NCBI GenBank assembly: GCA_021203325.1
Contig: JAJQBL010000155.1
Coordinates: 1 to 33,266 of the forward strand
Source of the DNA: Clostridiales bacterium
GTDB lineage: Bacteria; Bacillota; Clostridia; Oscillospirales; Oscillospiraceae
DNA: 33,266 bases
Direction: 5' to 3'
The notes under the pieces were generated by a model, which saw nothing but the letters and a program-made list of their open reading frames with translations, made no database searches and had not been told where the DNA came from. Below are positions 8,092 to 13,924 of this stretch, one piece after another. The translations under genes were made by a program, and so were the position numbers. The first letter of the stretch is position 1. Each line of letters starts with the position of its first letter.

Positions 8092-8171
8092 GCAAGTTCA
8101 ACGGTACAATCTTGCATTTTGAGGGCAGAGCAAGCCCCGCCCTCTCCCGTCTGGGCTGATACCGGTTCCCC

Positions 8172-8208
8172 AAAAAAACGCCTGCCACCCGGCCGGGTGA
8201 CAGGCGTT
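8172..8208 (-). terminator. Terminator of the four-gene small-protein operon
   Basis: On the minus strand the hairpin AACGCCTG-x-CACCC with GGGTG-x-CAGGCGTT (loop GGCC) is followed by a run of Ts (8178-8172). It lies about 95 bp beyond the stop of the last small gene, closing a self-contained unit. Confidence 0.9.
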
Positions 8209-8303
8209 GTATGTTGTGTCAGATCATCCGCCCCAACCGGGCCGTCCAGACGGGGACGGAGGCGGGGTTGCCCTGCGCTTCCGCGCTGTAGGGCAGGGCC
8301 GGA

Positions 8304-8429
8304 TCAATACCGGTGATAGTTGCGCTCGTTGCGGTAGGCCAGGGCATCAAAGGCGTCCTGATGCCGGCCGGCAAATTCGGTGAAGCGCTCAGCAAGGGTC
8401 TTTTTCTGCTTGGTTTCCATCGTTTTCAT
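8304..8429 (-). CDS. Small protein A, 41 aa, uncharacterised family (4th gene of operon)
   Basis: The frame starts MKTMETKQKKTLAERF, continues TEFAGRHQDAFDALAY and ends RNERNYHRY. AAGGAG lies 9 nt before the ATG, the same spacer as in the three upstream paralogues. Shared features are a Lys/Gln-rich N-terminus, a central RF motif, a His-containing helix, a DAL/DAY segment and an aromatic, basic C-terminus. There is no Cys, no signal peptide and no membrane segment. It is the last gene before the terminator. I do not recognise the family. A second in-frame ATG at 8420 lacks spacing. Confidence 0.7.
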   Translation of the reverse strand: MKTMETKQKKTLAERFTEFAGRHQDAFDALAYRNERNYHRY

Positions 8430-8459
8430 GTTCGTTCACTCCTTACAAATAGGGACGGT

Positions 8460-8576
8460 TCAGCGGATGCTGCGGCTGTAGGCGTCAAACGCCCGGCCGA
8501 TTTCGGGGTGCTTCTCCAGATAGTCGCAAAAACGCTCCATCAGGTTCTTCTTTTCGTTATATTCACGGTTTTTCAT
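8460..8576 (-). CDS. Small protein B, 38 aa, uncharacterised family (3rd gene)
   Basis: It begins MKNREYNEKKNLMERF, has the helix DYLEKHPEIGRAFDAY and ends SRSIR. AGGAG sits 9 nt before the second of two adjacent ATGs; starting at the first (8579) adds one Met. The stretch from ribosome binding site to codon 4-5 is nearly the same as in gene C (AAGGAGTAAAT, then ATGAAAAACCGTGAA), which indicates recent duplication followed by divergence of the rest. It closely resembles protein D (xYLEKHPEIG against xYMEKHLPEIG). Function unknown. Confidence 0.7.
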   Translation of the reverse strand: MKNREYNEKKNLMERFCDYLEKHPEIGRAFDAYSRSIR

Positions 8577-8630
8577 CATTATTTACTCCTTTTATGAGAT
8601 GGGTTTGGTTTGGGTTGGGAACGCCGCCGC

Positions 8631-8747
8631 TCAGTGCTGGCAGTAGTTCCACTCGTCAAAGTAGCGCAGAGCCTCGAAAAAGTTGGGATGGCGCTCTACA
8701 AAGCTGCCCTTCTTCTGGGCGGTCTGCTTCTGTTCACGGTTTTTCAT
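8631..8747 (-). CDS. Small protein C, 38 aa, uncharacterised family (2nd gene)
   Basis: It begins MKNREQKQTAQKKGSF, then VERHPNFFEALRYF, and ends DEWNYCQH. AAGGAG lies 9 nt before the ATG. Compared with B it keeps the first four or five codons and the xRHP...A..Y pattern but has lost the RF-x-x-[FY] block. It is highly charged with an aromatic C-terminus and one Cys near the end. It lies 54 bp upstream of B. Function unknown. Confidence 0.7.
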   Translation of the reverse strand: MKNREQKQTAQKKGSFVERHPNFFEALRYFDEWNYCQH

Positions 8748-8926
8748 CACAATTTACTCCTTATATGATGCTGTCTGTCGGGTTCCTCCGCGGGGGGCGG
8801 CTGCTCCTGGCCTCAAGCCGTCTATAGGGTACCGACGGCTCCGGCTGATACGGTGCTGCGCCGGGCGCATCCCCGCTGCACGGTGCTCGATGACGAAGCG
8901 CTGTAGTTCTATCTGCTGCGGCGGGT

Positions 8927-9055
8927 TCAATACCTCGGAAAGGTCCGCCAGTTATAGAGGGCAAGCGCATCACCGATTTCCGGCAAATGCTTCTCCATGT
9001 AGCTGGAAAAGCGGCCTGCAAAGCCATGCTTCTGCTTCTTGTCACGAATCTCCAT
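8927..9055 (-). CDS. Small protein D, 42 aa, uncharacterised family (1st gene)
   Basis: It begins MEIRDKKQKHGFAGRF, continues SSYMEKHLPEIGDALALY and ends NWRTFPRY. AAAGGAG lies 9 nt before the second of two consecutive ATGs; the first ATG at 9058 would add one residue. This is the promoter-proximal gene, about 85 nt downstream of the -10. The C-terminal RY matches the RY of protein A. A 179-bp gap to gene C holds no convincing fifth gene. Function unknown; soluble, basic, helix-forming peptide by composition. Confidence 0.7.
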   Translation of the reverse strand: MEIRDKKQKHGFAGRFSSYMEKHLPEIGDALALYNWRTFPRY

Positions 9056-9141
9056 CATGCGTCACTCCTTTAAGTTCCGATTCGGCCATCTGCGACTGCG
9101 CTGTGGCCGTTGGGTTTTTGTTACCGTGTACCCTTACGGTG

Positions 9142-9214
9142 ATTATAGTATAGCACGGCCCCCCGCCTGGGAAAAGGTACCTGATTATCCTCTTTTAGGT
9201 CGATATTGACTTTT
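9142..9214 (-). promoter_or_regulatory. Promoter and conserved operator of the four-gene small-protein operon
   Basis: On the minus strand a -10 TATACT (9152-9147; TATAAT at 9147-9142 overlaps it) has a weak -35 TTTTCC (9175-9170) at 17 bp. Upstream, 9214-9184 matches the block before small gene E at 26 of 31 positions by eye. The core is GTCAATATCGAC, then GACC, AGG and TAAT. The weak -35 together with a conserved site just upstream suggests activator dependence. Confidence 0.7.
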
Positions 9215-9351
9215 TTGCATGAGTCATACATAGATTATTCATTTTTGCCGCCGCAAAGACGGCCCATGGCTGCACGTTTTCGCCGTTGATGTGCGTGAAA
9301 ACACGTTCTCCTGTTCCGGCGGCGTCCTGCCCCCTGTGCCGGCAAACGGAA

Positions 9352-9382
9352 AACCAGGACCGCCCAAAGGGCGATCCTGGTT
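9352..9382 (-). terminator. Hairpin, probable terminator downstream of small gene E
   Basis: 14-bp arms (one mismatch) AACCAGGATCGCCC and GGGCGGTCCTGGTT around a TTT loop are followed on the minus strand by TTTTCCGTTTG. It lies about 250 nt past the stop of gene E. The intervening 9383-9634 holds a purine-rich tract (9388-9420), smaller hairpins and no convincing gene. Confidence 0.55.
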
Positions 9383-9634
9383 CCCGAAGAAAAAGAAGAA
9401 GAAAAAAGGGGAAAACGCAAATCTATATGGAAACGGGCGGCGGATAAGGGGCATCCCCGCCCCGGTTGGCCCTCTCCCGACGGAGCCGCCCTCAGGCGGC
9501 CCCGCCTTTGAAAAAGAGGAAAAAAATGAAGAACGCAAGGTTAACGGGCCAGCCCGGCCCATCTGGGCTGGTCGCTGCGCTGTCCTGCCCGCCGCACCCG
9601 GAGGGGGCTGACGGAGGCAGAAAGGATGCGATAC

Positions 9635-9760
9635 TCAGCGCACATAACGGTAATCGTCGGTGCGGGGGGTCGCGTCGCAGTAGACATCGTCCATCAGACG
9701 GTCAGTCAAAGCTACTTTCTTGCCAAAGAGAGGCAGCTTCTGGTTGTGATTCTTTTTCAT
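9635..9760 (-). CDS. Small protein E, 41 aa, solitary divergent member of the family
   Basis: It begins MKKNHNQKLPLFGKKVALTDRL, continues MDDVYCDATPRTDD and ends YRYVR. AAAGGAG lies 11 nt upstream of the ATG; an ATG at 9769 is only 2 nt from the ribosome binding site and is less likely. It shares the Lys/Gln-rich start, the size and the aromatic-basic tail with proteins A-D but little direct sequence. Its placement in the family rests mainly on the shared 31-bp regulatory block and promoter geometry. It stands between the four-gene operon and the AraC-type gene. Function unknown. Confidence 0.65.
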   Translation of the reverse strand: MKKNHNQKLPLFGKKVALTDRLMDDVYCDATPRTDDYRYVR

Positions 9761-9932
9761 AATACTCATAACTCCTTTATCCTGAATTCTGTTGGCGCGC
9801 TGCCTGAGCGGGAGCAGGTGCGTCTCCACACTGCTGCCCCTGCCCACCGGAACCCCGGCTGGCACCGCGCACGTTAGCAGTTGCCGTCCGGAACCTTTTT
9901 CCTTGTCTCATCCGGTTCCTTTCAGCATCCTA

Positions 9933-10001
9933 ATGATACCACGGCCGTTCCTTTCTGCCAAGGCAGGTTATTAGCCTTTTTATGGTCAATATTGACTTTT
10001 G
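9933..10001 (-). promoter_or_regulatory. Promoter and conserved operator of small gene E
   Basis: On the minus strand TTGGCA (9961-9956), 17 bp and TATCAT (9938-9933) form the promoter. The block 10001-9971 contains the perfect palindrome GTCAATATTGAC (9997-9986). It ends 9 bp upstream of the -35, the same relation to the -10 (within 1 bp) as in the four-gene operon. The leader to the ATG is about 165 nt. Confidence 0.7.
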
Positions 10002-10100
10002 AAAAGAAACGGGTGAATTTTCGCGTTTTTCTGAGCGATTTTCTATAAGATTTCAGAAAGCAGGCTGACGCTGCCCCGTTCAGGCTGCCCGTCCCAGCAT

Positions 10101-10143
10101 CAACTGTCGGTCAGTTGACATTTTCTGTCAGCTATGGTAGTAT
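10101..10143 (+). promoter_or_regulatory. Promoter of AraC-type regulator 1 with inverted repeat over the -35
   Basis: TTGACA (10115-10120), 17 bp and TAGTAT (10138-10143) form the promoter. CAACTG (10101-10106) and CAGTTG (10112-10117) form an inverted repeat that overlaps the -35, suggesting negative control, perhaps by the product itself. Confidence 0.75.
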
Positions 10144-10168
10144 CTTTTTAGGAAAGGAGGCTGCCCTG

Positions 10169-11020
10169 ATGGATCACTACTTCCACGAAAACCTGAAGGA
10201 AGCGGGGGAAAACGGTTTTAAGATCGATTTTTTGGAAGGAACCCCGTTCTATTATCCCGCACACTGGCACTACGCGCTGGAGCTTCTGTTCTGCACGAAA
10301 GGATTTATTTTCGTGAAGGTGGGGGACGGAGAGTCCATGACGGCCCACACCCAGCAGACGTTCCTGCTGAACACCATGACCATCCACGAATCCTGGAGCC
10401 ATGAGGCGTACGAGGGCTTCTGCGTCCACCTCTTCCCGGACGACATGAAGCGGTACGTCTCCACCTTTGACAAACTGCGCTTTTCCCTTTCCTTTTCCTC
10501 CAACGATTTGGAGCGGGCCAAGGCCATGAGCCGCATCAACGCCAACATGATGCAGATCGCCCTGCTGCACAAGGAGCAGCCGGAGGGTTATCTGCTGGAG
10601 TGCGCCGCCCTGGTCTACAGCACCACACAGGTTCTGGTGCAGCACTTCTCCCACCCCCTGGTGGAGGAGGAGGTCAAGACCGCCCAGACCGGCATCGCCC
10701 GGCTGAAGCCCCTGCTGGATTACATCGACCTCCATCACGCGGAGGAGCTGACCCTGGACGGGGCGGCGGACTATATGGGGGTCACCAAGGAGTACTTCTG
10801 TCGGCTGTTCAAGAAGAACATGGGGGTCTCTCTGACCCGGTATGTGAACAGCGTCCGCATCGCCCACATCTGCGAGGAGATGAAATATTCTGACCTGAAC
10901 ATCTCCGAGCTGGCGGAAAAGCATGGCTTCGCCAACATCAAGCTGATGAACCAGATGTTCCGGGAGCTCTACGGCTGCACGCCCTCCCAGAAGCGGAAGG
11001 AACTGACCTCCTCCAAGTAA
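10169..11020 (+). CDS. AraC-family transcriptional regulator with cupin N-terminus
   Basis: The protein is 283 aa. The N-terminal AraC-type cupin (PAHWHYALELLF, residues about 31-42) is the usual ligand-sensing part. The C-terminal domain has two helix-turn-helix motifs (LDYIDLHHAEELTLDGAADYMGVTKEYFCRLFKK and ISELAEKHGFANIKLMNQMFRELYGCTPSQKR segments). The longer frame from a TTG at 10115 is rejected because that TTG is the promoter -35; the ATG at 10169 has GGAAAGGAGG 8 nt upstream. It is divergent from small gene E and is the nearest regulator to the paired 31-bp operator blocks, so it is the leading candidate activator. The ligand is unknown. Confidence 0.88.
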   Translation: MDHYFHENLKEAGENGFKIDFLEGTPFYYPAHWHYALELLFCTKGFIFVKVGDGESMTAHTQQTFLLNTMTIHESWSHEAYEGFCVHLFPDDMKRYVSTFDKLRFSLSFSSNDLERAKAMSRINANMMQIALLHKEQPEGYLLECAALVYSTTQVLVQHFSHPLVEEEVKTAQTGIARLKPLLDYIDLHHAEELTLDGAADYMGVTKEYFCRLFKKNMGVSLTRYVNSVRIAHICEEMKYSDLNISELAEKHGFANIKLMNQMFRELYGCTPSQKRKELTSSK

Positions 11021-11329: not shown

Positions 11330-12880
11330 TCACCGCAACACCAGGAAGGATTGCGGCTCCAGCCGGATCGTGCCATCCTCCGCCGCACCCCCGCCGATGG
11401 AAAAGAGGATTTGCCGCGTCCCTCCGTCCACCGACGCCTCCACGGCCTCCGCTGAGGGATTCAGCGCCAGCAGCAGCGCACCTCTGCGGTACAGGAACAG
11501 CTGCTGCCCCTGCCGGGCATTCACCACCTCAAAGTCTGCGTCCGCCTGTAGATCCGTCTCCCTGTGCCGGAGGGCCAGCAGCGCCCGGACGGTGTGGAGC
11601 AGGGAATCCGGGTCGGCCTCCTGCGCTGCGACGCTGGGGGCGGCGGCAGAGGTATCCACCGGAAGGTACAGCGCGTCTGCCGGGGCGGTGGAGAACCCGG
11701 CATTCCGCCCGTTCGTCCACTGCATGGGCGTGCGGGAACCGGTGCGGAAATAGCCTCCCTCTTTTGTGGGGAGGGTTTGGTACCGCATCCCGATTTCGTC
11801 GCCGTAGTACAGGAACGGCGCACCCGGCATAGTGAAGAGGAATGCGTAGGCCAGCTTTAGCTCCTGCTGGGTCAGGTTGTACCTGGGACGCACTGTGTCA
11901 TGGTTGCAGGTGATGAGGCAGTAATAGCCGTCTTCCCTGGTCGCCAGGTAATTGGGCAGATACTCTGCCAGGAAGCGGGTCATGTCCCCGTGGCCGTCCT
12001 GTTTGAAAAAGGTATGATCTTCATTTCGGGGATTCTCCACCCTGCCGTAATCCCGCATGAGGGCGTTATACCCGTTGCCTGGCGCATCCAGGTAGAAATC
12101 CATGTGGAACCCCGCCTTCAATGACCGCACCGGGTCGCCCCATTCGGCGAGGATGGCGGCTTCCGGGTACTCCTTGTCCAGCATTGCCCGCACGTTTCGC
12201 CAGATTGCGCAGGTACCGTTTTTTTCCGCGTCGTCGTTCTTCACAAGTGACATGGCCATGTCCACCCGAAAACCGTCGCACCCGTGATCCAGCCAGAAAC
12301 GCATGACGTCTTTCATAGCCTCCCGGGTGGCGATGCAGGACGGGTGGTCTGTGGGGAGTTGCCAGTCCTCTTCACAGCGGAGGAAGCCGTAGTTCAGCGC
12401 GGGTTGGCACTTGAAGAAGTTCAGCAGATAGGTGCCGTTCCGCTCACACTCCCCGCCGATGTAGGGATACCCGGTTGTCGGCTGAAAGCAGTGATTCGTC
12501 CAGATATAGCGGTCGGAAAATGCGTTCCGCTCCGCTTTCTGGCTCTCCAGGAACCACGGATGCTCTTCGGAGGTATGCCCCGGCACCAGATCCAGAAGCA
12601 CATGAATCCCACGCCTGTGGGCCTCGCCGAAAAGACGGTACAAATCCTGGTTCGTCCCGTATCGGGGGGCAACCTTTTGATAATCCCGCACGTCATATCC
12701 GGCGTCCTTGAACGGGGAGTCGAAGCAGGGGTTGAGCCACAGGGCGTTGCATCCCAGCCCCGCAATGTAATCCAGCTTTTCGGTGATGCCGTTGATGTCC
12801 CCGATCCCGTCTCCGTTGGTGTCATAAAAGGACTGGGGATAGATCTCGTAAAATACAGCGTCTTTTAACCAGTTTGGCAT
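11330..12880 (-). CDS. GH13 alpha-glucosidase / trehalose-synthase-like enzyme
   Basis: The 516-aa cytosolic enzyme has the (beta/alpha)8 barrel motifs in order: YQIYP-like start (VFYEIYPQSFYDTNGDGIGD), LDLVPGHTS (region I), GFRVDMAMS (region II, nucleophile Asp), ILAEWGDP (region III, acid Glu) and ITCNHDTVRPR (region IV, Asp). SRTPMQWTNGRNAGFS is typical of alpha-glucosidases and trehalose synthases acting on short malto- or isomalto-oligosaccharides. A beta-sandwich C-domain follows. There is no signal peptide, so it acts on imported sugars. GGAGGTG lies 7 nt before the ATG. It is divergent from the second AraC-type regulator, which probably controls it. The exact linkage specificity is not readable. 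Confidence 0.9.
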   Translation of the reverse strand: MPNWLKDAVFYEIYPQSFYDTNGDGIGDINGITEKLDYIAGLGCNALWLNPCFDSPFKDAGYDVRDYQKVAPRYGTNQDLYRLFGEAHRRGIHVLLDLVPGHTSEEHPWFLESQKAERNAFSDRYIWTNHCFQPTTGYPYIGGECERNGTYLLNFFKCQPALNYGFLRCEEDWQLPTDHPSCIATREAMKDVMRFWLDHGCDGFRVDMAMSLVKNDDAEKNGTCAIWRNVRAMLDKEYPEAAILAEWGDPVRSLKAGFHMDFYLDAPGNGYNALMRDYGRVENPRNEDHTFFKQDGHGDMTRFLAEYLPNYLATREDGYYCLITCNHDTVRPRYNLTQQELKLAYAFLFTMPGAPFLYYGDEIGMRYQTLPTKEGGYFRTGSRTPMQWTNGRNAGFSTAPADALYLPVDTSAAAPSVAAQEADPDSLLHTVRALLALRHRETDLQADADFEVVNARQGQQLFLYRRGALLLALNPSAEAVEASVDGGTRQILFSIGGGAAEDGTIRLEPQSFLVLR

Positions 12881-12945
12881 AGAGAGCCACCTCCGATTTT
12901 TCTTCTGCCGTCCCCCCTGCGGGGCTGGCGTTTATGATGATACTA

Positions 12946-13004
12946 TACTATAATAGGTGCGGGATTTCTTGCAAAATACTACTCGATCCTAACACGATCC
13001 CAAC
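12946..13004 (-). promoter_or_regulatory. GH13 promoter with tandem direct repeats
   Basis: On the minus strand TTGCAA (12974-12969) and TATAGT (12952-12947) are 16 bp apart. Two direct repeats, plus-strand CGATCCTAAC (12984-12993) and CGATCCCAAC (12995-13004), lie 11 bp apart, one helical turn, starting about 9 bp upstream of the -35. This is the geometry of an AraC-type activator site. Confidence 0.6.
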
Positions 13005-13033
13005 CAAGCGCACAGGCGCGGGAGGCGTTCCTC

Positions 13034-13924
13034 ATGAAACAGCAGAATCCGGATTACAGAGAGCAGATTGCCCACGGGGATTCCCTGCTCCCCGTGAGCT
13101 ACTACTGCTGCCACATACCGGGAAAGTTTCGCACCGTGCCCCTCCACTGGCATGAGGAGGTGGAGTTCACTTATATCGAAGTGGGCAGCGCCCAGTACAC
13201 CATTGATTTCGAGACCTTCCCGGCGGAGACAGGAGATTTGCTCCTGCTCTCACCTCAGGCACTGCACGGCGTCCAACAGCGGCAGGGGGAAACGATGACC
13301 TCCCACACCCTGGTGTTTCACCTGAACTTTCTGGGCTGTCTGATACCGGACATCTGCACCGTGAAATACCTGAACCCGATCCTCAGCGGGAAATGCCACC
13401 TCATCCCTGTCGTGAAGCCCGGCCACCCGGGCTATGAGGGGATGAAAGGGTGGTTTCTGGAGGCCTGTCAGGTGTTTCATGAAAAGGGCGAGGCCTATGA
13501 GCTGCGCACCAGGGCGTGCTTGACGGAGCTGCTGGCCGCTGCCTATCTCCACGGATGCGTGGAAACGACGGAGCGGAATGCCGGCAGCCTGTATGCGGAG
13601 GAAAAGCTGAAGGAACTGCTGACCTATATCCAGGCGCATTATAGCGACCCCATTTCCATCCGGGAGCTGGCGGAGGTCTGCCATTTCAGCGAGACGTACC
13701 TGATGCGCTTCTTCCGCAGGTATACCGGAATCACCTGTGTGGAATTTATCAACCGCTACCGGCTCTCCAGAGCCGCCGCCGCCCTGGAGGAAACGAACCT
13801 GCCAATCATGAACGTGGCGCTGGAGAACGGCTTTCGGAACGTCTCCTACTTTGATCGACTGTTTCAGAAACAGTTTGGGCGGACCCCCGGCGCCTACCGG
13901 AAGGAGAGCCGCCAAAGCCCCTGA
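13034..13924 (+). CDS. AraC-family transcriptional regulator with cupin N-terminus
   Basis: The protein is 296 aa. The N-terminal cupin (VPLHWHEEVEFTYIEVGSAQY and GDLLLLSPQALHGV) would bind a sugar-type ligand. The C-terminal double helix-turn-helix starts near residue 190 (LLTYIQAHYSDPISIRELAEVCHFSETYLMRFFRR, then IMNVALENGFRNVSYFDRLFQKQFGRTPGAYR). GGGAGG lies 8 nt before the ATG. It is divergent from the GH13 gene across 153 bp that contain direct repeats next to the GH13 -35. The inferred role is local sugar-responsive activator of the GH13 gene. It is only distantly similar to the regulator at 10169-11020. Confidence 0.9.
   Translation: MKQQNPDYREQIAHGDSLLPVSYYCCHIPGKFRTVPLHWHEEVEFTYIEVGSAQYTIDFETFPAETGDLLLLSPQALHGVQQRQGETMTSHTLVFHLNFLGCLIPDICTVKYLNPILSGKCHLIPVVKPGHPGYEGMKGWFLEACQVFHEKGEAYELRTRACLTELLAAAYLHGCVETTERNAGSLYAEEKLKELLTYIQAHYSDPISIRELAEVCHFSETYLMRFFRRYTGITCVEFINRYRLSRAAAALEETNLPIMNVALENGFRNVSYFDRLFQKQFGRTPGAYRKESRQSP

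Follow-up and report, generated by a model that had tools for sequence, protein, structure and literature searches.

An AraC-family regulator gene and a shared candidate operator place four tandem paralogous small-protein genes in a putative regulon in Clostridia

The window, by which we mean the whole stretch of 33,266 nucleotides that was analysed, carries four small open reading frames (ORFs) in tandem on its minus strand, here called P1 to P4 (Table 1). As the original prediction had described, they lie within positions 8304-9058, encode proteins of 38-42 aa, and share a ribosome-binding site (RBS), with AGGAG and a spacer of 9 nt before an ATG in each case. The claim of one operon with one promoter and one terminator also held. 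An extended -10 element lies upstream of P1, without a good -35 and absent from the list of a sigma-70 consensus scan, and an intrinsic terminator follows P4. Upstream of the operon is P5, a separate small gene with its own promoter, and divergent from P5 is a gene for an AraC-family regulator.

Table 1. Genes and sequence features of the locus (window coordinates, except for the ORF in genome G012)
Feature	Position	Strand	Remarks
Intrinsic terminator of the P1-P4 operon	8177-8208	-	14-pair stem, then a T run; conserved in the carrier alignment
P4	8304-8429	-	41 aa; ORF with clear purifying selection
P3	8460-8576	-	38 aa; further ATG at 8579
P2	8631-8747	-	38 aa from ATG; GTG at 8750
Hairpin H2, GCCGTC-(GGTACCCTATA)-GACGGC	8817-8839	-	P1-P2 spacer
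P1	8927-9055	-	42 aa from the second ATG; first ATG at 9058
Hairpin H1, ACCGT-(AAGGGTAC)-ACGGT	9123-9140	-	Expected mRNA 5' end; inside a 23-nt run invariant in seven species
Extended -10 of the P1-P4 operon, TGCTATACT	9147-9155	-	Within an invariant run, seven species
Candidate operator of the P1-P4 operon, GTCAATATCGACCTAAAAGAGGATAAT	9184-9210	-	Half-sites GTCAAT and GATAAT, 21 bp apart
Terminator-like hairpin after P5, AACCAGGATCGCCC... then T	9352-9382	-	Found by eye; absent from the terminator prediction list
P5	9635-9760	-	41 aa; not demonstrably a P1-P4 paralogue
Conserved structured leader of P5	9761-9927	-	Kept in seven species; putative transcript start
Extended -10 of P5, TGGTATCAT	9933-9941	-	
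Candidate operator of P5, GTCAATATTGACCATAAAAAGGCTAAT	9970-9996	-	Half-sites GTCAAT and GCTAAT, 21 bp apart
AraC-family regulator gene	10115-11020	+	PF02311 AraC_binding and PF12833 HTH_18; listed from TTG, in-frame ATG at 10169
27-aa ORF in G012, MTSIKKMFAQWLESYYKVVELKNQYRL	L109 1173-1256	-	RBS and terminator-like hairpin; downstream of operator, divergent from AraC homologue

We compared the four proteins with one another against 2000 shuffles for each pair. All six pairs scored above the shuffles (P 0.0005-0.0010); five beat every shuffle, and P1-P2 beat all but one. These results indicate that P1-P4 are true paralogues, as had been supposed, with the majority consensus MKNRExKQKKxLxxRFxxFxERHPExFxALAYxxERNYxRY. 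The similarity of P5 to P1-P4 was not significant in the same kind of test (P 0.05-0.59). When a 27-aa ORF from a second locus in the genus (genome G012, see below) was included, all eight comparisons with P1-P4 gave P≥0.05, and neither P5 nor this ORF is demonstrably a member of the paralogous family. Searches of P1-P4 against Pfam, NCBIfam, PHROGs, PDB sequences and PDB folds returned nothing above chance, in line with the suggestion of an unrecognised family.

In the genomes sampled, the distribution of the operon is narrow. With P1 as query, 59 genomes (the relatives and the window's own genome) gave seven matches, all within the genus. A DNA search returned the same seven genomes and one chance match of 32 nt in G030, which was dropped as it lies inside an unrelated gene. 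We then searched a profile of 23 rows against 32 genomes of the genus and obtained 28 near-full-length matches at E≤1.4e-18, four in each of seven species; these carriers are the window's own genome, G002, G004, G017, G018, G021 and G029. The next-best matches in the genus (E 0.0045-0.94) fell in nine other genomes and at extra places in the carriers. Among 400 genomes of the family, strong matches occurred only in four carriers, with partial matches (E 0.002-0.1) in 29 non-carrier genomes; among 394 genomes of the order, only three carriers matched at E≤0.01. We attribute the weak genus and family matches to chance, given their partial length and their usual position inside longer frames; the one viewed, by ORF list, was that in G009 (L035). 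The P5 gene was found in the same 7 of the 32 genus genomes. Taken together, the operon, the paralogy, the lack of a known family and the lack of RiPP genes among five neighbours stood as originally predicted, but the expectation that such genes are likely unannotated in many genomes did not, with strong matches in seven species only.

Where the stretches reach, the gene order is constant in the carriers: a BcrAD/DUF2229 gene, a second gene whose DUF2229 match is below the cut-off, P4 to P1, P5 and araC. The exceptions are G029, in which the BcrAD/DUF2229 gene was not seen, and G002, in which araC is cut by the contig end. The second gene is also present in 22 non-carriers. In 16 stretches downstream of it, six of them shorter than 900 bases, nothing resembled P1-P5 at E≤0.01; other genes occupy the longer stretches. 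A narrow literature search for AraC regulators with divergent small proteins, or for tandem small proteins in Clostridia, returned nothing on point. Microbiome small-protein catalogues of the GMSC type reportedly hold short conserved ORFs of a kind easily overlooked by gene callers, and P1-P4 are likewise short conserved ORFs.

The frames of P1-P4 are open in the window and in the six other carrier species, and AAGGAG precedes all 28 starts. The spacer from the RBS to the ATG used is 9 or 10 nt in the carriers, with nearer ATGs in some. Between the window and the six others, dN/dS was 0.06-0.13 for P4, 0.04-0.27 for P5, 0-0.49 for P3, 0.19-1.01 for P2 and 0.35-2.29 for P1 (one value undefined), P1 having a very low dS of 0.00-0.09 in four of six pairs. 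Pooled over P1-P4, it was 0.25-0.37 versus 0.03-0.12 for three flanking genes.

We also placed the observed changes at random in 5000 trials. P4 has 22 synonymous and 12 nonsynonymous changes where 9.5 synonymous changes are expected, a value reached in none of the trials, so P4 is a real protein. The result was borderline for P5 (11 and 10, 7.2 synonymous expected, P=0.0498) and suggestive for P3 (12 and 17, 8.9 expected, P=0.12); both are probably real proteins. The changes in P2 (6 and 20, 6.0 expected, P=0.59) and P1 (10 and 20, 8.4 expected, P=0.31) resembled random placement. A dN/dS near 1 is thereby cleanly excluded only for P4. Synonymous changes are not in excess in P1 and P2, and their presumed coding status depends on paralogy, open frames and the conserved RBS, not on the substitution pattern. 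By eye, we ruled out a fifth ORF hidden between P1 and P2, since its frame meets a stop in G021 and loses 1 nt in G029. The P2 of G004 (L085 4879-4992) stands apart from that of the window at the protein level (dN 0.12); for P1, P3, P4 and P5 the two genomes give dN≤0.01. It is as though this P2 had been exchanged or had evolved fast.

The regulator gene divergent from P5 encodes both domains of an AraC-family protein above the curated Pfam cut-offs (PF12833, E 5.8e-18; PF02311, E 1.3e-5). Alignments of the upstream regions revealed a 27-bp element, GTCAATATYGACCWWAAARAGGMTAAT, upstream of both P5 and P1 on the same strand, which the original prediction had missed. It contains a 21-bp direct repeat of GTCAAT-like half-sites, namely GTCAAT and, 21 bp on, GATAAT, GCTAAT or GTCAAT. 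A distance of about 21 bp is the typical spacing of AraC half-sites. The window contains two perfect copies of the 22-nt core of the element, whereas 100 shuffled versions of the window contained none. A 49-bp weight matrix gave the two known sites 76.7 and 74.8 and the next place -8.9, the matrix being trained on those two sites. At up to three mismatches, the 32 genus genomes contain 15 sites, two in each of the seven carriers and one in G012; the 24 other genomes have none, and neither was any found with a reversed control pattern. The distance from the element to the extended -10 is equal in 14 of the 15 promoters, the P1 promoter of G004 having one extra nucleotide.

In G012, the site lies between a gene for a 298-aa AraC homologue, 48% identical to that of the window, and the tiny divergent ORF of 27 aa. 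This ORF is not significantly similar to any of P1-P5 (P=0.11 against P5, shuffle test). The neighbourhood is otherwise unrelated: among 86 window ORFs of at least 100 aa, only araC and two antisense frames match its 12 kb. AraC homologues of at least 48% identity and the operator share one distribution in the genus, the same 8 of 32 genomes having both and the others neither, although the carriers are close relatives, so these are not eight independent events. Among the 400 family genomes, AraC matches at E≤1e-45 were confined to four genomes, all carriers. Six further species of the genus have an AraC homologue at 30-33% identity and no operator; the ORFs divergent from these homologues offered only weak candidates, of 24 aa (L135) and 40 aa (L138), and were set aside. 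The stretches that we take to be the DNA-recognition parts of AraC are 0.87 and 0.78 identical between the window and G012, versus 0.46 for the N-domain. In the six distant homologues the values are 0.73 and 0.61, versus 0.20-0.22. The conservation of these stretches is thus also seen in homologues without the operator, and is not specific to operator users.

Judging by the half-site spacing and the co-occurrence, the AraC regulator very probably binds the candidate operator. Since the operator is common to the operon and P5, and P5 is divergent from araC, the operon would be part of the same regulon, and we consider it highly probable that AraC, P5 and P1-P4 form one. The operator of P5, lying between P5 and araC, could in addition serve the promoter of araC itself. 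In this way, four orphan ORFs gain a putative regulon for which regulator gene, operator sequence and promoters can be named, and shared operators offer a route to a context for orphan small ORFs. P5 and the G012 ORF are not significantly similar to P1-P4, so that genes under this regulator may differ in function.

P1-P4 are basic (pI 8.9-9.6) and hydrophilic (gravy -0.90 to -1.51; mean Eisenberg -0.17 to -0.42), with 18-residue helical moments that reach 0.38-0.54. An AlphaFold model of P4 has helices at residues 12-22 and 24-38 (mean pLDDT 70, pTM 0.32) and matched no PDB fold at E≤10. These predicted properties fit soluble protein-binding proteins better than membrane-active peptides.

On this basis, we propose that the AraC regulator, through its ligand-binding domain, would respond to a ligand, bind the two half-sites upstream of P5 and P1-P4, and activate both. 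P1-P4 would then be intracellular, for the most part helical paralogues whose action depends on binding to a partner protein. The AraC regulator itself may be the most probable partner, giving a negative feedback such as that of Aar on AggR. We put the probability of this whole proposal at roughly 0.35. Speaking against it are the absence of any Pfam match for P1-P4, the missing synonymous excess in P1 and P2, and the dissimilarity of P5 and the G012 ORF to P1-P4. By analogy, P1-P4 might be anti-activators; we rank this above every other role, an effector function in the response coming second by a small margin.

Aar is described as a small protein that is activated by AggR and binds AraC-like regulators (PMC4038620, PMC10148876, PMC5570504), attaching to their central linker and abolishing DNA binding (PMC4038620, PMC5570504). 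The AraC Negative Regulators (ANR), the family of Aar under AggR and other AraC/XylS activators, are given as 39-80 aa (PMC4038620), P1-P4 with 38-42 aa being small as well. The Aar gene depends on an AraC-family regulator (PMC4038620), and the candidate operator suggests that the same might hold for P1-P4. The ANR proteins are predicted to be helical (PMC5570504), as is the model of P4. In contrast, the ANR family in these accounts is described from Gram-negative bacteria (PMC4038620, PMC5570504), whereas the present genus belongs to the Clostridia. Moreover, there are here four tandem paralogues and a fifth, unrelated small gene. If the proposal is true, this case in Clostridia would make small-protein feedback on AraC regulators more general than Gram-negative bacteria.

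Alternatively, the regulon may be as described, with P1-P4 being effectors, namely soluble modulators of an enzyme, a transporter or an RNA, and with no feedback on AraC. SgrT, a protein of 43 aa, acts on a sugar transporter in this manner. The operator sites and the co-occurrence with AraC speak equally for this reading, and a set of four copies in one operon would make more sense for dose or hetero-oligomers than for a feedback brake. Five neighbouring proteins were scanned for domains: two AraC proteins, an alpha-amylase-family protein and two BcrAD/DUF2229-type proteins, one of them below the cut-off. The adjoining alpha-amylase-family gene and second AraC gene would suit an effector role; however, neither has the operator, since up to three mismatches were allowed in the window without a further site there and the weight matrix finds only the two known ones. 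We regard effectors as a serious though somewhat doubtful alternative to the feedback role. The alpha-amylase-family gene (PF00128) is divergent from the second AraC-family gene, at 11330-13924.

It is also conceivable that the operon, at least in its 5' half, serves mainly to produce a structured RNA rather than peptides. Hairpin H2 lies in a 28-nt non-coding run, the longest invariant run in the aligned region, except for its outer G-C pair, which is lost in two of the seven species; H1 is invariant, and RNAalifold predicts both. The loops of H1 (AAGGGUAC) and H2 (GGUACCCUAUA) share a 7-nt perfect complement, which arises at a frequency of 0.0005 in random loops of equal composition, for a pair that was picked after it had been seen. 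A kissing contact between H1 and H2 is therefore possible. Together with the weak constraint on P1 and P2, which lack a synonymous excess (the low dS of P1 included), these features would suit an RNA. On the other hand, 0 of 100 predicted pairs in leader and spacer changed on both sides, so covariation gives no support, and the region spanning H1 to the P2 start folds with only a modest z of -2.0, 5 of 100 shuffles being as good. In Rfam, nothing reached the gathering score in the window, and the one match in 8100-10200 (E 0.99) was far below it. Both P1 and P2 are open in 7 of 7 species and paralogous to P4 at the protein level. We consider RNA as the main product unlikely. Slightly less probable still is a full Gram-positive counterpart of AggR-Aar, with quadruplicated anti-activators and P5 on the one side and a polycistron tuned by the H1-H2 loop-loop contact on the other, that is, feedback by both protein and RNA.

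An operon of four basic peptides in tandem, each of 38-42 aa, is reminiscent of secreted cationic peptides, such as a leaderless multi-peptide bacteriocin. Aureocin A70 comprises four tandem peptides, and both it and PSM-alpha are like the P1-P4 operon in that a single transcript carries a number of short paralogous ORFs with separate RBSs. The peptides of both are amphipathic and membrane active, whereas P1-P4 are strongly hydrophilic, and the five scanned neighbours are neither transporters nor immunity proteins. The amphipathic or hydrophobic peptides and the exporter or immunity genes of a leaderless bacteriocin were thus not found among P1-P4 and these neighbours, though the helical moments of P1-P4 reach 0.38-0.54, nor was any RiPP or bacteriocin machinery, as the original prediction had noted, the rest of the window being judged from the ORF list only. 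We consider this reading improbable. Least likely is a peptide-pheromone circuit of the Rgg/SHP or RRNPP kind, in which an exported, cut peptide returns as the ligand of the adjacent regulator: a regulator with a divergent small ORF is present in both the window and G012, but this regulator has AraC_binding and AraC-type HTH domains, the peptides are hydrophilic overall, and the two divergent ORFs are not significantly similar.

The flanks of P5 are conserved as well. The stretch around the leader of P5 (9745-9927) folds with a z of -3.7, and none of 200 shuffles was as good. The leader of about 167 nt contains one GGAACC and two GGTTCC stretches, which could compete. We rejected an upstream extension of P5, as a 2-nt indel puts the window and G004 in different frames there. 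Downstream, about 300 nt on the minus strand (9331-9634) have 199 of 304 columns invariant in seven species, and this region includes a 19-nt invariant run at 9440-9422 and the terminator-like hairpin.
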